Source of the DNA: Pseudofabraea citricarpa
Taxonomy: Eukaryota; Ascomycota; Leotiomycetes; Helotiales; Dermateaceae
DNA: 64,000 nt
Reading direction: 5' to 3'
NCBI GenBank assembly: GCA_029641185.1
Contig: JAPWGK010000001.1
Span: 2,492,501 to 2,556,500, forward strand
Position 1 is the stretch's first letter. Every line of letters begins with the position of its first letter. The notes under the pieces are model-generated. The model searched no databases and was not told the origin of the DNA. It saw only the letters and a program-made list of their open reading frames with translations. Position numbers and translations under genes: made by a program. Shown here one piece after another: positions 1,807 through 57,775 of this stretch.

Positions 1807-5691
<3,885 letters not shown>

Positions 5692-7075
5692 ATGGCGTGG
5701 CCGGAACCTAGAAATACAGGAATGCAATACCGTCGAGTCGGTAATTCGGGTCTGCACGTATCTGTGCTTGGTCTTGGAGGTTGGTTAACGTAAGTATTTG
5801 AAATCGAAGGAACGGCTCGGAAGAAACAAAGACTGATTTGGAGTCTAGATTTGGAGGACACGTTGAGAATGGTGAGTGAGAGAAAAAGGAACAAGAAGAG
5901 AATATCACCAACACGTGACCCAGAACAGACTTTTGCGTGTATGAAGCAGGCATATGATTGCGGGATCAACTTCTTCGATACCGCCGAGAGGTTAGTTGGA
6001 GAGTTTCCAGGACAAAGTAAGAAAAACGGAGACGAGATGCTGAAGTTTTGATGCCACAGTTATGCTGGAGGTCAATCTGAGATCATGATGGGGAAGGCCA
6101 TCAAGAAATACGACTGGAACCGAAACGACATCGTGATCAGCACCAAGGTGATTAAAGACTCCTAACCGCTTGGTTCGAGCGTCTTTCTCTCTCGGAATAC
6201 TGATTTTGAGGCAGTTAAACTACGGCGGAGCCAATGGAGAAGTCCTGATAAACAACCACGGCCTGTCACGGAAACACATCATCGAAGGAACAAAAGCTTC
6301 TCTCAAGCGCCTCGATCTCGAATACGTCGATATAATCTACGCACACCGGCCCGATCGGCTGACACCGATGGAAGAGACGGTTCGAGCCTTCAACCACGTC
6401 ATCCACAAAGGGCTTGCCTTCTACTGGGGCACGTCTGAGTGGGGAGCCGACGAGATCGCTGAGGCGTGCGGTATCGCCAAGGAGTTGGGCCTTATCGCAC
6501 CGATTGTCGAGCAGCCGCTCTACAATATCCTAGACCGCAAGAAGGTCGAGGGCGAGTTCCAGCGTCTGTACCCCCGCTTCGGGCTCGGCTTGACCACCTT
6601 CTCCCCGATCAAGATGGGCTTGTTGAGTGGGAAGTATAACGATGCCGTCAATGGGCCTCCGGAGGGCTCGAGGTTCTCCGAGAGCAAGGATAAATTCGCC
6701 GAGTACATGCGCGATAACTATGGGAATGAGGAGTGGCGGTCGAATATTAGCAAGGTCTCGAAATTAAAGGTACGTTTGTATACCATCTCTTGTTTTTCTT
6801 TCTTTTGGAGCAGGAAAGAGAACTTGGAGGCTGACTGTTCTTTGAAATAGCCCATTGCTGATCGCTTGAATGTCACACAATCACAACTCGCGCTCGCTTG
6901 GTGCTTGAAGAACCCAAACGTCTCTTCGGTCATCACGGGTGCTTCGAGACCAGAGCAGATTGTAGAGAACGTTAAATGCCTGCGGATCCTGGAGCTTCTG
7001 ACGCCAGAAATCATGAACGAGATCGATGTTGCGGTTGAGAACAAGATCCAGAGAGATCCAGATAGACAAGATTAG
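5692..7075 (+). CDS. Aldo/keto reductase, voltage-gated K+ channel beta-subunit type
   Basis: Six exons: 5692-5789, 5849-5871 (a 23-nt exon), 5924-5990, 6060-6147, 6215-6769 and 6851-7075, giving 351 residues. The AKR catalytic tetrad is present: Asp and Tyr in FFDTAESYAGG (the Tyr codon follows the exon 3/4 junction), Lys in ISTK at the end of exon 4, and His in YAHRPD. The C-terminal NADPH-binding signature follows (SSVITGASRPEQ). Length and motifs match the fungal AKR6/7-like family, which reduces aldehydes and ketones with NADPH in the cytosol. Whether it associates with a channel is unknown. The tiny second exon is needed to restore the conserved FGGHVEN-EQTFAC stretch. Confidence 0.92.
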
Positions 7076-36600: not shown

Positions 36601-37211
36601 GCTGTGAGTGCTGTCTGTCTTCCCTAAACCTAAGCTCTGTCTTCTCTCGGGGCCCGCACAGCGCTGTACTGTACAGTAATAATAATGATCAATGATCCCA
36701 TGTGCCGCTGATCTTCGCAGGGTGTCTTCGCAGGGTGACGGGCTTGTACAGCGCTGTGATCCATTTTTACCATCTTTCCAGCGCCCCGCGGCTGTCCGGT
36801 GGTTTGGTGGTTTGAGGTGATTCGTTCCTTCCTGCGAAGCTGCCAGGATTCCCTTTCCTGCCTCCGCTCGCTGGCACTACTTTGTACCGACTTCTCCTCC
36901 ATCGTCAGTCGACTTTTGCTCGCATCAACGTCAACCACAAACCTTGATCTTCTCTTTTTCCTTTCTCCTCACCACCTCAACCACCCTCGTTTTTTCCCTT
37001 TCCTATTGAGAGCCACGTCGACAGGCTCTCGTCCATTCTTTTTCATTGCTTCCCACCCCTCTCTCTCTGTCCCCTACATTCTCTCCTCACATTCATTGCT
37101 CTGAGATTGCGACTATCCGAACGGAAAACTGTTCAACCTAATTTTCAACTCTCTTCTTTTATATCCTCCGACACTGGCACCTTAGAAATCTGGTTCCAGG
37201 AGACAGACACG
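33608..37211. other. Intergenic, about 3.6 kb
   Basis: No supported gene. Frames above 90 codons here have no recognisable motif or spliced continuation. The last ~300 bp are pyrimidine-rich and form the leader of the tyrosinase gene. Short palindromic GTACATGTATATGTACATG runs lie near 36215. Confidence 0.4.
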
Positions 37212-39130
37212 ATGTTCGCCAGCCTCCACTTTCTACTGCTGCTCTTGTTGCAGTCAGTCGCTGCCAAATCCTATGATTATGGCGTCGACACACGTACCAT
37301 TCTTCCCCGCCAGGCCGTCTCGGCCATCGTGGTAACGGGAGCCTTGTCCAGCAGCAATGGATCGGTCCCAGTCCGCCGTGAGCTTCGAGATCTGGAGCAG
37401 GACAACACCACCTGGACACTCTATCTCCTTGCCTTGGACATGATGCAGTATACCAATCAGTCAGACATGCAGTCGTGGTACCAGCTCGCTGGAATCCATG
37501 GCCGTCCCTTCCTGTCTTGGGATGGCGCTCCAGCCGCCGCTGGGAACGAGAACAATGGATATTGTTCCCATGTCTCAATTCTGTTCCCGACCTGGCATCG
37601 CCCTTACTTGGCCCTCTACGAACAGGCTTTGAGCGGCATGGCACAGTACATTGCTTCGTTGTACCCCGAGGGGCCCGTGAGAGACCAGTATGTCGCTGCT
37701 GCCGCCAACCTCCGTATTCCTTATTGGGACTGGGCGGTTGCTCCTCAGGCTGGCAAGCATACTACGCCCGACAGTGTCATCGTATCAGATACTGTGCTTG
37801 TTGATGGTCCAATGGGTGCGCAAGAGATTCATAATCCCTTGTTCAGTTATGAGTTCAAGCCACTCGACCCCACACAGCTCCCAGATGCTCCTGTAAGTGT
37901 CCATCCCCTCCTTGTGGAAGGTAAAAACTAACAGCACCGCAGTTCAACATCTGGACAGAGACCAAGAGATGGCCTACAAACAACACGGCTAGCGCAGTAT
38001 CTCGAAACATTCAGATGGCGACGGCACTTGACCAAAGTGCCTCTTCTTTACGCAACAGATTGTTCAACCTGTTTACCAACTATAACAACTACACCGAGTT
38101 CAGTAACGAGGCATTCAGTCAGCAAGGCAGTAACTACGACTCCGTAGAATCTATCCATGATTACATCCACGGATATACTGGAAATGGAGGTCATATGACC
38201 TATATTGACTACTCAGCCTTCGACCCGATCTTCTTTTTACACCACACTATGGTTGATCGAATCTTTGCGTTGTGGCAGGTCTTGAACCCAGACAGTTGGG
38301 TTGAGCCAGAACCATCGAGATATGGAACATTTACATCGCCAGCTGGCACGGTTCAAGACGCAGCATCACCTTTGACCCCTTTCCGAATTGATGACAGCGG
38401 CAACTTCTGGACCTCTGATTCATCTCGTACCACCTCGGCCTTTGGTTATGAATATCCGGAGACTGTTGGTCCAGCTGGTGCAGACTTGAAGAGTCAAGTT
38501 TCTACAGCCATCAATAATCTGTACGGTACGACAGCCCCAGCAAATCTGGTGACGAGAGACCGCTATACTGTTCGGAGATCTCGGTCTGAAATCCAAAACC
38601 GTGCTCTTTCAATTGCGAGCTCAGAAGGCCTTCCTGCTGGCCTTTCGAAGAACAACCAGTACCGCGAGTGGATTGTCAATATCCGAGTTAAGAAGCAAGC
38701 ACTTGCTGCTCCTTTCATGATCAACGTGTTCCTCGGTCCTTACAACCCCGATCCGTCTACCTGGATAACCGAGCCAAACTTTGTCGGTAGCCATTATATT
38801 TTTACCAAGGCTTCAATGGCCATCAAGGAAATGATGGCCTGTTCCGAATGCAACAAGGAACAACTCATTTCAGGTACCGTTCCATTGACAAGTGCATTAT
38901 TAGCAGATATCAAGAGTGGTGACCTCGGCAGTCTTGATCCGGCTGTGGTGGTCCCTTATCTTCAGCGCAATTTGAGATATAAGGTCTCTACTCTAGATGG
39001 CGCGGATGCCGGCATCGTGGAAAGTATGTCGGTCAGCGTTGTGAGCGCTGAAGTACAGAAATCTTCGGCTGGAGAGCTGCCCAAATGGGGAACTCTTGAG
39101 ACAGAGGTGGATAATGTTCTCTGCGGTTGA
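37212..39130 (+). CDS. Secreted tyrosinase (type-3 copper phenol oxidase)
   Basis: Two exons, 37212-37892 and 37943-39130, giving 622 residues. The start is the Met of MFASLHFLLLLLLQ because it opens a signal peptide ending near SVAAK; the frame also runs upstream without signal character. CuA site: IHGRPFLSWDG near residue 95, then YCSHVSILFPTWHRPY near 118-132, where the Cys in CSH can form the thioether to a copper His. CuB site: IHDYIHGYTG near 298 and FFLHHTMVDRIFALW near 323. A C-terminal domain of about 250 residues, with CSECNKE, follows and may shield the active site until cleaved. The enzyme oxidises monophenols and diphenols to quinones for melanin or phenolic detoxification. There is no melanin cluster around it. 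Confidence 0.94.
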
Positions 39131-45370: not shown

Positions 45371-45613
45371 ATGAAGACCAACTTCCTCAGCCTACTCATC
45401 GCAACTATCTCGGTCTCTGCCGGCTTTGCAAGCGCTGCATCATGCAACATGGCTTTCACAGATGGGTCGACGGCTGGCGTGGCGGCTGGGTTTAGTGGGG
45501 GTGGAAACACGGGGTCATGTTCTTTTTCTTACGAGTGTCCCGCGGCTGGCCCTTGTAGCACGAGCAACCAATCCCCCGATGGGTGCTTGACAAGTTGTGT
45601 TTTCGAAGCTTAG
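45371..45613 (+). CDS. Small cysteine-rich secreted protein (80 aa)
   Basis: Single exon. A signal peptide (MKTNFLSLLIATISVSAG, ending near SAA) leaves a mature protein of about 57 residues with six cysteines: ASC, GSC, YEC, GPC, DGC and TSC. Six cysteines allow three disulfides, a common frame for apoplastic effectors and antimicrobial peptides. The centre is Gly/Ala-rich (AGVAAGFSGGGNTG). No known family recognised. A TATA box and CT-rich leader precede it, consistent with a strongly expressed gene. It could equally be a cell-wall or hydrophobin-unrelated surface protein. Confidence 0.68.
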   Translation: MKTNFLSLLIATISVSAGFASAASCNMAFTDGSTAGVAAGFSGGGNTGSCSFSYECPAAGPCSTSNQSPDGCLTSCVFEA

Positions 45614-45812
45614 ACGACGAATGTTATGGCTGTAGGAAATATGCGAATCCGCCTGTATCTGAGCACTGAGAAATTTACACTTCAGTCATGTTTGGTGTGA
45701 TTCTGAAAATATGATAAAATCGCGTCGTTGTTCCTAACTTCCTAGAATGTATTCATCGTTTGACAAAACAAAATCCCTTCTCCTTCCAAAACATTAAAAT
45801 TCATTTTACTCA

Positions 45813-48800
45813 TCATACCATATCAGAGCCGGCATCTCCGTTCAGCTCTATATCGTCATGGCCAGTATTTCCCGATTCTCTTGCACCCGACGGCTCTTGA
45901 CTAGCCTGCCCAGAATTTCTTCGGCTAGAAGTTGTGAGTCCAAAAAACCTGTTGATTGTTAGCATGCATTTCAACTCCCTGTATATTGTGATAGACCTAC
46001 GAAAGAATCTGTGACCAGAAGGAACTATTTCGTTCTCGATACAGCCGGATGAAAACAGGACGCAAGATATGCCACAAAGGACCCCTGAGATAGTTCGCGA
46101 AAGCGATGCCGTTGTTACTAAATACATAATTCAAAACCAAGAACGAAACGGGCGAAATACACATAAACCAACACTTGTTAGCCAACGGGCTTATGATAAG
46201 GAACCCAAAAGCTATCATTGAAAGTAAAGCCACCAGAACGACGGGAAGGTAAAAGAGGAACCCTATGAATACGAAGGCCAAGAATAGTATAAAGCCCGAG
46301 GTATTTCCATCTTGGATGATGCGCGTTGTCGATCGAGCATAGGAAGCAAACCACGAATTCCCAAGAGAACCTATTCGGATGACACTCCAGATGCCAAGTG
46401 CGAGCAATGCGAATGCAAGGATATTGCAGAATACGTGAACCTCTGCTAAACACAGAATCCCCCCACGGTGGGCGCCATGGTTGTTGAGTATTCGCTTGCA
46501 AGACTTTGCCTGGGCTGTTTTGGAGCTTACTGCCACATCAAGTGGAGTAATAAAGATCGAGATCAGCCACTTTCCATTAGCGCTCAAACCCATCTGAAGC
46601 AAATGTTCAATCGCAATATCAGACTGATATCTTGCTGCTAGAAGAACAAACCCGAGAAAAGAGTCCTTTAGTTTCCGATTTGCCTTTACGTGCTGCTCTA
46701 CACAGGAAGCCCACAACTCAGAAGCATCAGCTAAGTGGCTCGACGCTTGTCCTTCAAGAGTTGTAAGTATTGATAATTCTTTCCGACCAAAGAGTAGCTT
46801 CGGTGCTGTATGTGCTAGTCCCGTGGCTTCTATCAAGCTTCGCGCAGCTTTCAGCTCCTTCATTCTCAGAAGTTGTACATATGTGGATTCTCTTGAGCGC
46901 TTTCTCCAGACGAGCGAATCACTCCAATAGTATTTCGCTCTTGGATTGGCACGACGAAGAAGTAAAAGTCGAGTAAGCTCGTTCCATTGAATCAATGTTG
47001 ACCTAATTAGTGGAGGAGTGAAGAGCTCAGGATAACATGTTTGCTCTAGTTGATTTGGGATCCAGTCTTGATGTTCTGATATTCCATGCTTGTCAAGCTC
47101 TTCAAGCAGGATTGAGCTAAAAGATATCAGAGAGCATACGAGATGTTTTAACAAAATTTAACTCACCCAAACAAGATGTCTCGATGGTCAGCCATTGCCA
47201 CAAAATTCATATACAATAATCCATAGTTAATACGGCCGTCAAACCATCTAGAGGCAGAGTGAAAGTTTACCGGGAAACGATATGCAAAGTCAGATGGATA
47301 AATTCTTCGATAACAAATAGTGTGTACACTCTTAGTCAGAGGGTAAAAACAACCAACATCATTGGCTTTCCGAGCAGCTGAAATAGAAGGGCATCCTTGG
47401 CCGGCAATTTCGTCATTTTGGTCGTTGTTAGTCGCATTCTCTCCATTGTCATCGTCGCCCGTGTGGGGTTCAAGAGCGTGCTGGCGGTCGTGTGTGGTTG
47501 GCGGCTTGCTCGTTTGGCTTGTATTCACTTCTGTCTTCCCTCGTCTGAGAAAGACTTGGAAGCGAGGGCCACGATTTAGAGCTTCGCCATTGTGTAACTG
47601 GAGCAAGATACGAAAAATATCCCGGTATCCTTGAACGATCGCAAGTTTGATAGCTTTCACGAGACCGGTTTTCAAACGATGAGGTGCATTTGCCACTTGT
47701 TCATTATATCGGCCTTCGTCTCCTTTCCAACCAAATGCTCTAAAAGGTGTTCCGATCTCAGGTTGTTCAAGAAGAAACTGCAAGGCGTCGAATTTTCCCT
47801 CTCGGATAGCCAGGAAGAGTGCGTTCCTTTCGCCGCCACATTTATTTTGAACAAAATCAAAACCCAGCTTAGAAAGAAATGCCAAGGTCCGACGCAAATT
47901 CTGTTGATAATCGCGACCGTAACTCAATGCTCTCCAAAACCTTTCTGGCATGTTGAAACCAGAAGCTGGTTTGTCAGAGACACATCCGATAATCACAAGA
48001 GCCGCTAAGGAATATCGACGCCCTTCGCTCCAGAATCCCATGTTATTGATGGATTCATGGCTGAAAATCTTCGGTTCGTGGTTGTATATTACCTCTAATG
48101 TGTCGATGTCGCTTAGTCTACAGGCCCAAGCAATTAGTTTTCGTAGGTTTGCTCGCCGTACTGCAGCCTGGCCTCTGGTGAGTTGGCCTTGGTGTTCTTT
48201 TTCTAATTTGAGTAGAATTTTGAGAATGAATGGCTTGTTTGACGTAGTCGCTCTAACCAACGGGCATCCAGGAACGATGGGCCTGATGTCGAGTGGTCGA
48301 TTCATTGTTAAGCTTGTTGCTTCTTGAGTGACGTCTGCACCTGCATCGAATAAAGCACCTGCAATTTGCCCAGCTTCTTTTTCCTCGAAACATGACAGAA
48401 AGTGTAAGCAGTTCTCATGGTTGTTATTAGAGATTTTCACGTTAGCGCCGAGCTTCAGAAGGATCTGAACAACTTGGTGTCTCCCTGACTTGCACGCATA
48501 GATCAAGGGAGTGTCGCCCTCAGAGTTTCGAAAGTTGAGTATATCCATATCAGCAAGGAGACTTTCTGGGATTTTTGTAAAAACATCGTCTCTGCCAGTC
48601 ATGGCTGCCCAATGTAGGATAGTATCCTTTTGGGGACTGTAGAAATTGGTGTAGAACGAAATGTCAGTGAAATCCCTGGTAAATAACCTGTTTTCATCTA
48701 GTTCCCACAAGAATGCATTTGAGAACTCGCTCCTAAAGGTCTTCCGAACCCTGTTGTAACTTGCTGGACTTAGCTTCAGCAAGCTTTCTAGAGCAGTCCG

Positions 48801-49100
48801 AGAACCTCGACTAGCGGCATCGCTGAGCCATTCATCGACTGGCGTTGTATTTGGCAGACTTTGATCCATTGCTTCAACCAACCGATGGATTGTCGCTCGT
48901 GCCCAAAATTCGCCTTTTTCACATCCTTTGATGAGCCACTTAGTTGCCGTTGAAAAATTCATATCTGTACCAAATCCAGAGAAGAAACACAGCGCGAGGT
49001 CATAACAAGCAGCTGAGGCTCTTTCGTCAACATCCTTTTCTGCCACACACTCAAGAGATCGTACTACTTGAGCCTTGAGTAAAAAACTCATGGAGTTCAT
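45813..49100 (-). CDS. Ankyrin-repeat protein with C-terminal multi-span membrane domain
   Basis: Three exons on the minus strand: 49100-47167, 47116-46001 and 45948-45813, giving 1061 residues from the ATG at 49100. Near the N-terminus there is a Sel1-like stretch (ACYDLALCFFSGFGT to AIHRLVEAM). Ankyrin repeats follow near residues 165-270 (DTILHWAAMTGRDDV, GDTPLIYACKSGRHQVV) and weaker ones later (ERNALFLAIREGKFDAL, PLDVAVSSKTAQAK). The end carries about three to four hydrophobic spans (VFCNILAFALLALGIW, FILFLAFVFIGFLFYLPVVL, IAFGFLIISPLA) and a polar tail. It lies immediately downstream of the kinase gene on the same strand. Homologous fungal proteins often carry the kinase at the N-terminus, so this may be the second half of one gene. 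Confidence 0.7.
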
Positions 49101-49291
49101 AGAATGATAAGGTATTGAGAGCTACTTTCGATTAAACGAGAACTCGATATGGACTGATCTTGGAATATTGGTGAGACCTACGATATTTGAGTTCAGTCTC
49201 TCCATGACTTTGGTAGGTAGCTCTTCGTAAACATTTTCCTTATAACTGCTCTGCTGTTAGCTCATTGAACATTCTTAGCCGAGCACAAAAC

Positions 49292-50595
49292 TTAATTTGA
49301 AATTTTTAGCATCATTTTATTCAGGTCTCTCTTGGAGGGATCAAGCTGAAGGGTCAGATTGGCGAGGTCCTCAAGGAGGGGAGGGTCGTCTGCGCGGGAC
49401 GCAAGTTCGGTGTCGTGAACACCTTGCATCAACCCGATAACGTAGTTTCTCAGTTCGTCCGTCTCTTTCAGAATAGTTAAGTTCTGAAAACGCTCTTCAG
49501 TAGTACGTCCATTCTCGAGCTGCTCAATAAATCTACCAGCAATGTCGAAACCTATCATAACACTTGCAACTACGAAGCCAAACGAGTAGACGTCGGTCTT
49601 AGTTAAGTTGAGTGGAGACAGTTTCTGTTTCCATTCTGGCGCTGCATATACTGCAGTGCCACCAACAAGGTATTGGTCGTCCTCCGTGTTTAACAAAGAG
49701 TGGCTAAAGTCAGCCACTTTGGCAATCCATCGCTCCTTTTCAAACATTAAAACATTTTCCAATTTGACATCGCCATGAACAATGCCACATTTATGTAAAG
49801 CTTGAAGGCCTTTAGCTATGTCAAGACATATATCTGACCTTGTATGGAATGGAAGGCTAGGGTTTCTTTAGAAGGGATGTCGTTAGTCGTATGATAAAGG
49901 AGAGAAAAAGGGTAACTACTAACGATTCTTGAAATTCATCCAAAGTCCCATACGCTTGCTCCAGAACCAAACTAGGCTCAGGGCATGTTCCCAACTACTG
50001 TATTAGTCTCGGATTATAAATTAGGTAAGAAGTTACAAACCAAGCCATTGTATTCCCAACCAATACCAAGAAGATCAACTATGTTGCCATGTGACCGGAC
50101 ATATGGTTGGCTCAGTATTCGAAGCTCCATAATGAATCTAGCTGCAGCCTGCTGCGAGGCTTTGGAATCTAAAGTTTCGCCATTGCCCTTAAACATTTGA
50201 ACGGGCGACCTTTTCAAGATAATAGGCTTTTTCTGCTTGACGATATTGTCAGCTGCAACATCGCTCAGCTTTGTGCTCTCCATTTCAATGTATGACACTT
50301 GAAACACTGCTCCAGCGCCAACGTTTCTTTTAGTTGCATTGTTGATTTGTTGCATCTTCAGAACATTAGGCTGGCTGTATAGGTCCTCGACAGCGGTAAG
50401 CAAGTTAAGAAAGTCATTGCGAAGATCACTGCGTGCGGCAGAGCCAGAGGTAACCAACGGAATAGCCCTTGTTGTCGTTCTTCGAAAGAAGGAGTTGACC
50501 CGGGAAGAAAGTAACCCATCGTTTTTGCAAAGCGCACGATTTGTTTCTTCCTTTGACTCGTCGATTATGTAAAGAGTTGCACGGACTGAAGCCAT
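49292..50595 (-). CDS. Protein kinase, probable N-terminal half of a kinase-ankyrin protein
   Basis: Three exons on the minus strand: 50595-50041, 49994-49924 and 49865-49292, giving 399 residues from the Met of MASVRATLYII. A mostly complete kinase fold is visible. It has the Gly-rich NVGAGAVFQVSY, a Lys in PIILKRSP, and a Glu in MELRILSQ. The catalytic loop is HGDVKLENVL, with the Asp present. The DFG position reads DFS, and YAAPEW and DVYSFGFVV follow. Catalysis therefore looks possible. The frame ends in TAA soon after the C-lobe (LDPSKRDLNKMMLKI). A further open segment without a start follows at 49253-49125, then the ankyrin gene. It is divergent from the HeLo-pseudokinase gene with about 530 bp between starts. 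The exon 1/2 donor (GTTTGT) is weak. Confidence 0.72.
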
Positions 50596-51125
50596 GCTAC
50601 ATAGATGTCCTGGGAGGTTTCCTGATAAGTATGAACGACGAAGAAAACCGAAATTTGCAATCTTGGAGAGAAATAAGAGTTTGCAAGATAGAAGGGATAC
50701 AGACAAGGCTGGGAGCCTTAAACGGACCCCACATATCTAGTTGCATGATGAGGCGGCAAGTTATTCCAGGTATATCATGGATAACCAATGAAATTCGAGA
50801 TCAACAACGAAAAGTGAGCCTTATGATCTGTCTGGGCCGTGTAAATACGACTCTGACAGCCACCTTGGTAATAGAAGCAGGGCTATGCCTATTCATACTT
50901 TTCCCATTTTAGATAACACTACCGCAAACATTGCCTCGTTGACAACGCATAAAGTATTTCAACACAGCTACGGCAGGGCGTCGTACATTAATACGCAATT
51001 CGGGATTGTCCGAAGCCTTGCGACAACTTTTTGCTTTAGCTCATGCCGAGAAATATTTCATATTTTGACAAAATCTTTCCAATCTATTGCCATAATCTCG
51101 ACGGCTCTTGCATTTGCTCGGGATA
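50596..51125. promoter_or_regulatory. Bidirectional promoter between kinase and HeLo-pseudokinase genes
   Basis: The 530-bp gap between the two divergent start codons holds no other supported gene, so both genes probably share this control region. No specific binding site can be named. Confidence 0.45.
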
Positions 51126-53006
51126 ATGACCGACCCCCTGAGTATTGCGGCCAGCGTGGCTGGATTTTTGAATCTGGCAAAGACTTGCATCGATCTCTAC
51201 GAGATTATCTCCGACGCTAGGCACGCTGCCGAGGATCTTGACCAGCTTGTTGCTTTCACTAGAATTGAGAGATTGCGCTTTCTAATGTGGTGCGAGTATG
51301 TGGGCATTGTCGAAGCTCTAGCAGCCCAAGGCCCGCAGGGTGATAAAAGCAAGCAGAATATCTTTTTGATACCAGAGCTTCAGAAGCCATTCATCCTAAA
51401 TGAGCTAGAAGTTATTCTGAGAAGATGCGGGAACTCCTTCCAAGATGCCCGTGCCTTTCTTGAACGCTATGTGGTAAAAGAAAAGCGCTCGTTTGTTTCT
51501 GACCTTCAGTTGAAGGATGCTTCAGAGTCAACTTCAACCATTCTTGTCAACACTTTATGGTCCAACGTAGTCCACTCATCCTCATCCCGTAGAAGATCAA
51601 TGTCAGTGGCTGAGCAGATCGCATGGACTGTTAAAGACAAGCGCAAATTTAAAAGCCTGGTGGAGAGCCTTCGTCTATACAACGACAGCATGCGTGATAT
51701 TCTGAATCTGGCTGAAAGAACACAACTCGAAAGAAGAATTGAGCTGGTGGCCACGACAACCCCGATTGCAAAGTCTGTTCGAGTATCCGGAGGTCCAGCA
51801 AACCAAGATGGAAACAGGGACATGCATCGCCTAGTTGAGCTTCTCCAGCGAAATTTCGCTGTTGATGCAGATATAGCGAAGAAAAACGACAGAATCGCTA
51901 TTGTAGGAGACATAAAGGGGAACTCTGAAGACATAGAAAGTCGAGCACTTCTAATGTCTCACATGGTCTATCCAAAAGTACAGCACCCTCATCAGACGCG
52001 CTTATATACTGTTTACGAAAATACGTCGGTTCTCGTAGAATGGAAATACTATTCCCTCCGAATCCCGCCCAAGGTTCTGACAGCTCTTAAACGCCGGGTC
52101 GATATGTTGACAATGCAGCTTCAGTTATCCTCTGAAACTAGTGGGTTTGGGGTTTTAAATTGCCTTGGCTACTTAGATGACCCGGATACCCATCGTGTGG
52201 GAATAGTGTTCCAGTATCCAGTGGCGTTGGGAACAGAGATACCGTTGAAGCCTGTATCTTTGCGAGAGCGACTGATATTAGATAGAAGGGATAAGATAGT
52301 TCGTGACCTGGGAGAAAGATTCAAAGTTGCACGGTATCTTGTAATGTCTATATTCCGCCTCCATTCGGTCGGTTGGCTTCACAAGAGTATTCGAAGTGAG
52401 AATATTTTGTTCTTTGAAAGGGCAACAGAAGATCAATACCGCCTTGAAAACCCATATCTCTGTGGTTTCGACTTTTCGCGACAAGATTCTCCAGGGGAAA
52501 TGACCGAGAACGTTCCAACGCTTCTATTAGAACACTACGTGGATTTCGAAAGAAGCCAGTATCGCCATCCTGATCTGGACCACAAGTCTGCAAATATCTA
52601 TAACAATCAGGAGGACAACCAGGCATTCGAAGCCGCAACTGAAGATGCAAAACAACTTGCGAAAGATTTCAGATACCAAAAGACGTATGATATCTACAGC
52701 CTTGGAATAGTGCTAGTAGAAATCGGGCTTTGGTGTCCCATCAAAGACTTGACGGCGGCCAACTCACCAATATCAGCATTTCGAGATAAACTTTTGTCGA
52801 AATATCTCCCAGAGTTGAGATATCGCATGGGTGAAAGATACTATAACGTAGTGGTGAGATGTTTGAGTGGAAGCTTCGGTACATCAGAAGAAGTATATGA
52901 TGCAACAGAGAGCAGGCTAGAGCTCAAGGAACTGAAGAACACCCGCATATGGTTGGAAAGCTTCGAACGTGATGCTGTTAGTGAACTGGAGCAAGTTGTA
53001 TTATGA
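51126..53006 (+). CDS. HeLo-domain protein fused to a pseudokinase
   Basis: Single exon, 626 residues, from the ATG of MTDPLSIAASVAGFLNLAK. Residues 1 to about 210 match the HeLo (prion-inhibition and propagation) pattern: a hydrophobic N-terminal helix, then ARHAAEDLDQL, then ERLRFLMWCEYVGI, and further long helices. Residues from about 290 form a kinase-like fold. The usual HRD is HKS (HKSIRSENILFF), so the catalytic Asp is missing. The DFG position is DFS, there is no clear Gly-rich loop, and DIYSLGIVLVEIG marks helix F. The HeLo domain of HET-S inserts into membranes and kills cells. Pseudokinase control of such a domain is inferred. No prion-like motif is obvious. Confidence 0.8.
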   Translation: MTDPLSIAASVAGFLNLAKTCIDLYEIISDARHAAEDLDQLVAFTRIERLRFLMWCEYVGIVEALAAQGPQGDKSKQNIFLIPELQKPFILNELEVILRRCGNSFQDARAFLERYVVKEKRSFVSDLQLKDASESTSTILVNTLWSNVVHSSSSRRRSMSVAEQIAWTVKDKRKFKSLVESLRLYNDSMRDILNLAERTQLERRIELVATTTPIAKSVRVSGGPANQDGNRDMHRLVELLQRNFAVDADIAKKNDRIAIVGDIKGNSEDIESRALLMSHMVYPKVQHPHQTRLYTVYENTSVLVEWKYYSLRIPPKVLTALKRRVDMLTMQLQLSSETSGFGVLNCLGYLDDPDTHRVGIVFQYPVALGTEIPLKPVSLRERLILDRRDKIVRDLGERFKVARYLVMSIFRLHSVGWLHKSIRSENILFFERATEDQYRLENPYLCGFDFSRQDSPGEMTENVPTLLLEHYVDFERSQYRHPDLDHKSANIYNNQEDNQAFEAATEDAKQLAKDFRYQKTYDIYSLGIVLVEIGLWCPIKDLTAANSPISAFRDKLLSKYLPELRYRMGERYYNVVVRCLSGSFGTSEEVYDATESRLELKELKNTRIWLESFERDAVSELEQVVL

Positions 53007-53557: not shown

Positions 53558-54908
53558 ATGACACGTCGGACTCCCTTTGGTCACCGCATGCGAGAGGCAC
53601 ACTTTCAATTCTCCCCTTCTTATACACCACTGAACCATGGCTCTTTTGGTGCGTATCCGCGCTCAGTTCAGGAGCGCCAGGATGAGCTCGTGAAGCTTGC
53701 CGCTGAGCGTCCTGATACATTCATTGTCTTCGACCTGCCTGAATACATCGACACATCACGTGAAGCAGTGGCACCTCTTCTCGGGGCTCCTGTGGATGAA
53801 GTGGTTTTCGTCCCAAACGCCACAACTGGAATCAATACTGTAATGCGCAATTTGAAATTTGCGGAGAACGATGTCATCATTCATTTCTCCACGATTTATG
53901 ATGCTTGCGAGAAGACCATCTTTTCAGTCGGAGAGCACTCACCTCTGACAGCTGTCTGTGTTGGGCTTGAGTATCCAATTGAAGACGAAGAAATACTGAG
54001 AAGGTTCCGAGACATGGCTAAGAAAGTGAAAGACCTAGGGAAGAATGTCAAAATCGCCATGTTCGATACTGTTTTGACTTTCCCAGGTGTGCGAATGCCA
54101 TGGGAGCAGCTGGTTGGTGCATGTAAAGAGATGGAAATACTAAGCCTCATAGACGGTGCACACGGAATTGGCCATATTGACTTGAGGCACTTGGGGAAAG
54201 TGAGCCCTGATTTCTTTGTGAGCAACTGCCATAAGTAAGTCGCCTGTTCGCTTATATTCACACTTGCTGAAGCGTTTTAGGTGGCTCTATACTCCTCGTG
54301 GATGTGCCGTTTTTTATGTGCCTTTGCGAAACCAACATCTTATACACACATCATTGCCAACCTCACACGGGTATGGATATTCGAGTGACAAAATGCCGAC
54401 CCCAGATGGCAAGACCCCATTTGTCCACTTATTTGAGTTTGTTGCCACAATCGACTATACTCCGTATGTCTCTGTCCCAGCAGCTCTCAAGTTCCGCAAG
54501 GAGATATGTGGTGGAGAGGCCGAAATCATGAAGTACTCTTGGGAAATTGCTCGTGTTGGCGGAGATCGTGTCGCAGAGATTCTGGAAACTGATGTTATGG
54601 ACAACAAGAGCCGAACTCTGCGGAATTGCTGTTTTGCTAATATCAGGTTGCCCCTAAAATTTAAAGCCCATAGCGAAGAGCGGCAGAAGGGCGAGTTTTC
54701 TGTCGAAGAGGCAGCTCTGATACAGAAATGGCTCAACGCTACTGCAGTAAAAGAATTCGATACATATCTCCAGATCGCCTTTCTCTATGATATTATGTGG
54801 GTAAGACTTAGCGGACAGGTATATTTAGCGATTGAAGACTTTGAATGGGTTGGTCATAGGCTAAAGGAGTTATGTGATACGTTGAAAGAAGGAAGATCGA
54901 AGATATGA
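53558..54908 (+). CDS. PLP-dependent aminotransferase-V-fold lyase, Egt2-like
   Basis: Two exons, 53558-54234 and 54281-54908, giving 434 residues. The fold-type I layout is clear: LNHGSFGAYPRSVQ near the start, PNATTGINTVMRNL binding PLP phosphate, FDTVLTFPGVRMPWEQL, and DGAHGIGHIDL. The Schiff-base Lys is in SNCHKWLYTPRGCAVFY near residue 226, created across the intron. TSHGYGYS follows. The pattern matches the isopenicillin-N-epimerase-like group that includes fungal Egt2, the hercynylcysteine sulfoxide C-S lyase of ergothioneine synthesis. The Egt1 partner is not in this window, so it could be a paralog with another thiol or amino-acid substrate. Confidence 0.85.
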
Positions 54909-56824: not shown

Positions 56825-57775
56825 CTACTCTAGCATCTTTGTTTCTATACCTACCTCCTCCCAGCAAATTTCTTTGAATCCCTTTTTGAATTGTGCAACT
56901 CCGTGTGAAGACTCTGAGCCTTCAGCTAACATGGTCTGAAATACCTCGCTAGTTATCACATCCATATCGCTACCTTGTGTAGCTTCTCTAGCCAACATTT
57001 TACACAGTGCAGAGGCTTGAGGCGCAGCTAATCTCATGTCGGACAAGAACTCTTCTGTGACCTTCTCGAGTGATTCGAGATCTTCTGCAAGACCGTGAAG
57101 GACTCCTGCGTTGTACAGAACTTGAGATTGCACCCTCCGCCCTGTCACCATAGCCATTCTCGCAAGACTAACACCCCACTCGCGTACTATAAACTTAGAA
57201 ATAATCGCAGGACAAAGGCCTAATTTGACTTCGCTCAAGCAAAAGTAACTATTTGACAACGCCAAGCGAATATCGCATACACTGGCTAGTCCAACTCCTC
57301 CACCGAAGGCGGGCCCATTGACGACTGCAACTGTTGTTTTCGGACACATGTCGATAGCATGGAAGAGGCCTTGGAGTGCAGCGCTCCGCTGAGCAACGGA
57401 TACAAAAAGATCCTCTTTGAGGTGCATTCCAGTACAGAAATAACGGCCCCGACCAGTAATGACAATCCGGTGAATAGACTGATCTATCGAAAGAGTTTCG
57501 AATAGCAGGGTGATACTCTGTATCATGGAGAATGTCAGCGAATTTCCTTGCCCTGGTCGATCTAGACACAGCCTAATGGTGCCACCCCGACGGGAGACCT
57601 CAAAAGCATCATCGATTTGTATTTTCGTCCACGGCCTTGTGGCCAGCTCAACTTGTGGAGGCTTTAGAAGTCGAATTCGTGACGATAACAAAGCTCGCTT
57701 GACTGTGTCGAAGTTCAAGTAAGACAAACTAAATTGTGTGAAGGTCTCTAGTAGTCTGATAAAGAAGCTGGTCAT
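56825..57775 (-). CDS. Enoyl-CoA hydratase/isomerase family protein (crotonase)
   Basis: Single exon, 316 residues. A roughly 55-residue N-terminal extension precedes the crotonase fold. Fold landmarks are IRLCLDRPGQGNSLT, VITGRGRYFCTGMHL (first oxyanion-hole segment) and VAVVNGPAFGGGVGLASVCD (second). LSEVKLGLCPAIIS follows, with the Glu that often acts in catalysis. The C-terminus (EVGIETKMLE) is not a peroxisomal PTS1. The family acts on acyl-CoA thioesters by hydration, isomerisation or dehydration. It is divergent to the P450 gene with about 940 bp between, and near an acyl-CoA dehydrogenase gene, which suggests a shared acyl-CoA pathway. Confidence 0.85.
   Translation of the reverse strand: MTSFFIRLLETFTQFSLSYLNFDTVKRALLSSRIRLLKPPQVELATRPWTKIQIDDAFEVSRRGGTIRLCLDRPGQGNSLTFSMIQSITLLFETLSIDQSIHRIVITGRGRYFCTGMHLKEDLFVSVAQRSAALQGLFHAIDMCPKTTVAVVNGPAFGGGVGLASVCDIRLALSNSYFCLSEVKLGLCPAIISKFIVREWGVSLARMAMVTGRRVQSQVLYNAGVLHGLAEDLESLEKVTEEFLSDMRLAAPQASALCKMLAREATQGSDMDVITSEVFQTMLAEGSESSHGVAQFKKGFKEICWEEVGIETKMLE

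Follow-up and report, generated by a model that had tools for sequence, protein, structure and literature searches.

In the excerpts of the literature on which this account draws, the HeLo domain of the fungal protein HET-S causes death by inserting its N-terminal helix into the membrane (PMC10197012) and is described as an execution domain (PMC3321046). In animals, the kinase RIPK3 phosphorylates the pseudokinase MLKL, which frees the MLKL bundle (PMC12881547). The same source reports HELL domains in proteins with kinase or pseudokinase domains and states that protease genes, a large share of which carry WD40, ANK or TPR motifs, cluster with more than 80% of the fungal gasdermin genes. According to the reviews excerpted, what sets off a fungal HeLo executioner is amyloid templating by a linked receptor, unless the executioner forms part of the receptor itself; gasdermins are set off by proteolysis. 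A review of 2017 notes that amyloid motifs occupy non-equivalent positions in the mammalian and the fungal pathways (PMC5485727). The present analysis concerns a window of 64,000 nucleotides from the ascomycete Pseudofabraea citricarpa (assembly GCA_029641185.1, contig JAPWGK010000001.1, forward strand, positions 2,492,501 to 2,556,500), in which a gene for a HeLo domain joined to a pseudokinase stands beside a gene for a kinase with Sel1 and ankyrin repeats. The pairing recurs in the genome, and this recurrence points to a possible fungal equivalent of the necroptosis switch of animals.

The HeLo-pseudokinase gene had been read in the initial annotation, from the letters of the DNA, as a HeLo domain followed by a degenerate kinase with HKS in place of HRD, and the nature of its N-terminus had been named beforehand as a point on which that reading could fail. 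Both parts are as described. In Pfam, PF14479 (HeLo) matches residues 7-205 with 85.1 bits (E 7.7e-24; cut-off 23.2), and in a profile search of the PDB the family profile finds the HET-s crystal structures at E 2.2e-19; the assignment by predicted fold is less firm than by either of these. The remainder of the protein matches DUF7580 with 27 bits, which is at the cut-off, and Pkinase weakly (15.9 bits; cut-off 31.7). The family profile also places MLKL among its top PDB hits (E 9.9e-6), with LIMK1 level and IRAK4 near. This backs, at the pseudokinase end too, the likeness to MLKL proposed at first, LIMK1 sharing it to the same degree; KSR and IRAK4 are likewise matched by the sequence profile. 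The AlphaFold2 model (predicted local distance difference score 80.9, predicted template-modelling score 0.86) provides a predicted pseudokinase fold with which ordinary kinases, including RAF, can be aligned. No gasdermin match was obtained for the window proteins in the Pfam scan; HeLo is present instead.

At least 17 homologues align with this protein at 99-100% coverage and 38-42% identity, among them proteins of three Xylographa species and of Ophiobolus disseminans. The conservation of kinase residues was followed in an alignment of 36 rows, the window protein included, of which the 18 closest were also counted apart. The catalytic Asp is absent in 35 of the 36 rows, and none of the 18 closest has D; the column in question, 421, holds S in 20 rows, G in seven, N in six, and A, T and D in one each. 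The beta-3 Lys is retained in 18/18 of the closest rows and in 30/36 overall, the Asp of the DFG position in 18/18 and 28/36. The column of Thr460 holds T in 32 rows and S in the other four, with T in all 18 of the closest.

The partner gene lies head-to-head with the HeLo-pseudokinase gene across about 530 bp, as first noted, and the motifs by which it had been recognized as a kinase are in place: HGDVKLEN, with the catalytic Asp that the HeLo protein has lost, ADFS and YAAPEW. Its last kinase exon scores 67.9 bits with Pkinase in Pfam, and the downstream part scores 81.8 bits with Ank_2 and 19.6 bits with Sel1, the latter below the cut-off of 30.7. All 6/6 aligned kinase-ankyrin homologues share the catalytic Lys and Glu, HGD, Asn, DF and APE without variation. 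A NACHT or NB-ARC match was not found by Pfam in the three kinase-ankyrin partners of this genome (window, C2 and most of the C28 copy, see below), in which kinase, Sel1 and ankyrin families were recovered. In a profile search of the kinase-ankyrin family, ankyrin proteins are among the 60 matches listed.

The initial annotation had placed here a kinase gene followed by an ankyrin gene on the same strand. Both parts are indeed present on that strand, but kinase, ankyrin and C-terminal part form one chain of 1365-1733 residues in the four closest homologues, namely P0056 of Cladonia borealis (1365 residues), P0057 of Ophiobolus disseminans (1656), P0058 of Xylaria sp. (1514) and P0059 of Chaetomium sp. 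(1733). The two stretches of the window are therefore most likely one gene, a reading from sequence that also rests on a piece resembling the homologues' kinase-Sel1 linker in another frame, as in an intron-split gene. The kinase frame stops at a TAA immediately before a GT, and no canonical splice bypassing this TAA was found by eye: no upstream GT donor spares the kinase tail, and a GC donor, though conceivable, would be a poor one. The window copy may thus be truncated, split or disrupted, follow an unusual splicing route or contain a sequencing error. Because the homologues are fused, two separate genes are ruled out as the ancestral state, though with its TAA the window copy itself may be so divided.

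The membrane part that had been ascribed to the kinase partner is found, as hydrophobic C-terminal stretches, in five of the 12 kinase-ankyrin proteins examined, namely P0056-P0059 and that of the window; no such stretches were seen in the C28 copy, in the C-terminal portion of that of C2 or in five other homologues. To judge from these sequences, the hydrophobic C-terminus is a variation and not a defining feature of the kinase-ankyrin proteins.

The evidence that carries the pairing comes from the genome as a whole (44 Mb in 43 contigs, with a fungal gene content). A search with P0056 yields only three loci at E <= 1e-15, namely C1 (the window), C2 and C28, and each of them adjoins a HeLo-pseudokinase gene. 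The pairs of C1 and C28 are head-to-head and that of C2 is tail-to-tail; the orientations thus differ, and a shared promoter alone is insufficient to explain the association. On C2, the kinase-ankyrin gene occupies the minus strand of locus L013 in frames 10000-8444 (clipped at the end of the locus) and 8338-6026, and the HeLo-pseudokinase gene lies on the plus strand at 4257-6089, with a HeLo score of 101.3 bits and the triplet HKN. The opposite-strand frames of this pair overlap at their 3' ends (L013 6026-6089). On C28, the kinase-ankyrin gene begins at 6262 of locus L018, on the plus strand, in a frame of 1544 residues. Its partner on the minus strand was first spotted as a neighbour; hhalign aligns it along its whole length with the family of the window HeLo-pseudokinase (probability 100%, E 1.2e-45), and a genome search with the window HeLo-pseudokinase recovers this partner as well (E 1.5e-9). 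The spliced partner reaches 43.1 bits with DUF7580 and 16.1 bits with HeLo, the latter below the Pfam cut-off, and reads HES. Both the C2 and the C28 kinase-ankyrin copies have long open frames, and all three copies of the genome carry HGD, N, DF and APE. Between loci the pairs share only 31-39% identity over their matched parts.

To set these three cases against the background, at least 138 Pkinase matches were merged into at least 110 kinase loci, and their distances, taken from match positions, were measured to the seven HeLo-pseudokinase genes counted (C1, C2, C12, C13, C28, C29 and C34). Three kinase loci have a HeLo-pseudokinase gene within 5 kb, against 0.175 expected, and there are still three at 20 kb; they are exactly the three detected kinase-ankyrin genes of the genome. 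With the window pair set aside, uniform placement would put both remaining kinase-ankyrin genes within 5 kb of any of the seven with a probability of about 2.5e-6. The recurrence of the pair is non-random. A control from the ankyrin side found that, among the best 150 of 165 ankyrin matches, none but those of C28 lie within 6 kb of a kinase match; the repeats of the window and of C2 fall outside the 150 matches listed and were added by hand, with two other positions. This control cannot exclude further kinase-ankyrin genes, and the genome search with P0056 is the better support. The coordinates of the window pair are collected in the table.

Features of the kinase-Sel1-ankyrin and HeLo-pseudokinase genes (positions in the window)
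Feature	Positions	Strand	Remark
Sel1-ankyrin-hydrophobic part	45813..49100	-	exons 49100-47167, 47116-46001, 45948-45813 (author's gene model)
Piece resembling the homologues' kinase-Sel1 linker	49182..49241 (approx.)	-	other frame; by-eye comparison with P0056
In-frame TAA separating kinase from Sel1/ankyrin part	49292..49294	-	homologues continue uninterrupted
Kinase part of kinase-Sel1-ankyrin gene	49292..50595	-	exons 50595-50041, 49994-49924, 49865-49292 (author's gene model)
Intergenic region between divergent start codons, 530 bp	50596..51125	.	sequence
HeLo-pseudokinase gene	51126..53006	+	single exon, 626 aa, intact open reading frame
HeLo domain, residues 7-205	51144..51740	+	Pfam
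Pseudokinase domain, residues 267-626	51924..53003	+	
HKS replacing HRD, residues 419-421	52380..52388	+	without catalytic Asp
Thr460, activation segment, proposed phosphosite	52503..52505	+	role inferred

The initial annotation had also made recurrence of the pair in another genome a point on which its reading could fail. Besides the two further loci of this genome, Ophiobolus disseminans has both proteins, on contigs of equal size (1,010,802 bases), and it is the only named species with both among the matches listed; the homologue searches for both proteins scored only candidates sharing most words. In the trees, its HeLo-pseudokinase falls within the window clade with a support of 100 in the Shimodaira-Hasegawa-like approximate likelihood-ratio test, and its kinase-ankyrin protein likewise falls within the window clade (95/96). 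Cylindrodendrum hubeiense was considered as a second species with both hits and rejected, its other protein combining NACHT with ankyrin and lacking a kinase domain.

The reading that we prefer, and to which we would give about an even chance, is that of a two-gene module of regulated cell death, immune in nature, made of a sensor and an executioner. The kinase-Sel1-ankyrin protein would be both the sensor and the enzyme, and the HeLo-pseudokinase would be the executioner, restrained by the pseudokinase domain that it carries itself. A trigger would reach the ankyrin/Sel1 part, whereupon the active kinase would bind and phosphorylate the pseudokinase, for which Thr460 of the activation segment is the likeliest site; the HeLo bundle would then be freed, and its N-terminal helix would attack the membrane. 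The killing role is assigned from the HeLo homology, and we infer the action of the kinase on the pseudokinase as well as its direction, site and trigger. Narrower still is the proposal of a fungal kinase-to-pseudokinase necroptosis axis, in which a linked, repeat-bearing sensor kinase phosphorylates and switches on a HeLo (four-helix-bundle) pseudokinase, the logic of RIPK3-MLKL being held in one cassette that would have predated animals or evolved separately; this we regard as possible, if somewhat doubtful.

Several observations weigh against a dedicated sensor/executioner pair. The HeLo-pseudokinase genes of C12, C13, C29 and C34 have no detected kinase locus within 20 kb, and such proteins can thus do without a kinase-ankyrin partner. 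Thr460 and the absence of the catalytic Asp characterize the group as a whole, relatives with no known pairing included, and are therefore not specific to the pair. The TAA interrupts the window kinase-ankyrin gene between its halves. Outside this genome, a search of 6437 candidates with residues 600-1000 of P0056 found no kinase-ankyrin partner in Xylographa and recovered only P0056 and P0057, a weak negative because it also missed the known P0058 and P0059; apart from Ophiobolus, the species found to have a kinase-ankyrin protein (Cladonia, Xylaria sp. FL1777, Chaetomium sp. and others) are absent from the HeLo-pseudokinase matches listed. Finally, the three paired HeLo-pseudokinases fall into three separate groups of the tree and are not one another's closest relatives. 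The approximately unbiased test neither establishes nor rejects a single origin for these groups (p-AU 0.083); the fuller tree has long branches, that of C28 among them. The pairing would thus be ancestral with losses of partners, or have been assembled repeatedly.

Tight linkage at three loci and in two orientations would also suit the logic of a toxin and its antidote. The kinase-ankyrin protein would here be an antidote or a guarded partner that keeps the HeLo-pseudokinase off, and loss, mismatch or disturbance of the partner would release killing, as in toxin-antidote or allorecognition systems. The stop in the window kinase-ankyrin gene, beside an intact executioner, could then be tolerated damage to the partner or a polymorphic copy; yet a HeLo gene left next to a truly broken partner should do harm unless another copy covers for it, and a purely binding antidote would not need the catalytic residues that all six homologues keep. 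Such an arrangement appears unlikely.

Signalling rather than death would be the outcome if the pseudokinase were the allosteric partner of the kinase, as STRAD is of LKB1 or KSR of RAF, and if HeLo only targeted the complex to the membrane. The alignment of the pseudokinase model with ordinary kinases, RAF among them, and the profile matches to KSR and IRAK4 accord with this, and nucleotide binding is plausible given that most rows retain the beta-3 Lys and the Asp of the DFG position. Other genes of the genome join HeLo to a ubiquitin-conjugating or a Ras-association domain, and HeLo may thus be a general module. Nevertheless, HeLo is the killing domain of HET-S (PMC10197012, PMC3321046), and linked sensor and executioner genes are a known pattern of fungal death systems (PMC12881547), at least in the excerpts covered; an allosteric role without killing accordingly strikes us as improbable. 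Mere history, that is, an old pair duplicated and retained together without functional coupling, has little to recommend it beyond the single origin that the tree does not reject, since adjacency persists despite the differing orientations and the low identity between loci, and the four other HeLo-pseudokinase genes are unlinked to any detected kinase.

Other loci with HeLo or DUF7580 were seen in the course of this analysis. Ten open reading frames (ORFs) from eight other HeLo loci or their flanks were scanned: two are HeLo-ubiquitin-conjugating and one HeLo-Ras-association fusions (L012 3252-5321, L014 4573-6903 and L015 4487-5698), two are plain HeLo, two HET-domain and one methyltransferase-type, and two gave no match. 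The two HET-domain genes (L027 3-1709 and 3517-5790) lie downstream of the unpaired C12 HeLo-pseudokinase. The unpaired gene of C34 (L028 925-4452, from C34:2368500-2374500) encodes a HeLo-pseudokinase of 1176 residues with a long C-terminal extension that carries GDSGAWV, a motif which we take to be trypsin-like. At L029 571-6000 (C1:2346500-2352500), a DUF7580 gene without a HeLo match is head-to-head with a stretch ending in an active-looking kinase (Pkinase 172 bits), the only one of the at least 110 kinase loci within 5 kb of any of the eight DUF7580 loci without HeLo. In the window itself, a small, cysteine-rich, secreted-looking ORF lies just beyond the 3' end of the kinase-ankyrin gene (45372-45614, plus strand), and further ORFs resemble, by eye, a tyrosinase (37107-39130), a class V aminotransferase (53558-54908), an enoyl-CoA hydratase (56825-57775) and a cytochrome P450 (59966-60631).

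Linked sensor and executioner genes are already known in fungi as a general kind; for the pairing of a kinase-ankyrin protein with a HeLo-pseudokinase, no description was found in the open-licence literature searched, most subscription journals lying outside this coverage. If the sensor/executioner reading is true, the pair provides the counterpart of the MLKL switch that was missing in fungi, and it becomes possible to test whether necroptosis driven by phosphorylation is older than animals. The group of HeLo-pseudokinases, which is annotated as HeLo/DUF7580 and has no assigned mechanism in the literature covered, would also gain a predicted partner and a predicted phosphosite.

Each of the closest known systems shares some part of this arrangement. 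In RIPK4/ANKK1 and the DAPK-type proteins, the kinase is followed by ankyrin repeats, as in the present protein, in which, however, a Sel1 region lies between the two; we know of no HeLo-pseudokinase partner of these kinases. Plant MLKL-like proteins such as wheat Pm13 similarly combine an executioner-type N-terminal domain with a kinase-like domain, but Pm13 is a plant protein, and no linked kinase-ankyrin gene is described in the excerpt of its source (PMC10951266). The HET-S/NWD2 pair and other fungal effector/STAND pairs also set a HeLo executioner beside a sensor gene, and order and orientation vary in such clusters as far as the excerpt goes (PMC3321046), whereas the present partner is a protein kinase with Sel1 and ankyrin repeats, and the present executioner ends in a pseudokinase and not in a prion-forming tail. 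The fungal gasdermin/protease clusters, as excerpted, are alike in that an enzyme, often near ANK, TPR or WD40 repeats, stands beside an executioner thought to be activated by it (PMC12881547); here HeLo replaces the gasdermin and a kinase replaces the protease.

RIPK3-MLKL is an animal system to which the pair can be likened, and the present pseudokinase group shares with MLKL the loss of the catalytic Asp. MLKL has also lost the Asp of the DFG position, which is kept here; furthermore, the present genes are adjacent, and the present kinase carries Sel1 and ankyrin repeats. Phosphorylation is here a proposed step, and LIMK1 scores as well as MLKL. No descent from RIPK or MLKL is claimed: it is in their logic, by analogy, that the fungal pair, RIPK3-MLKL and the fungal protease/gasdermin clusters would be alike.

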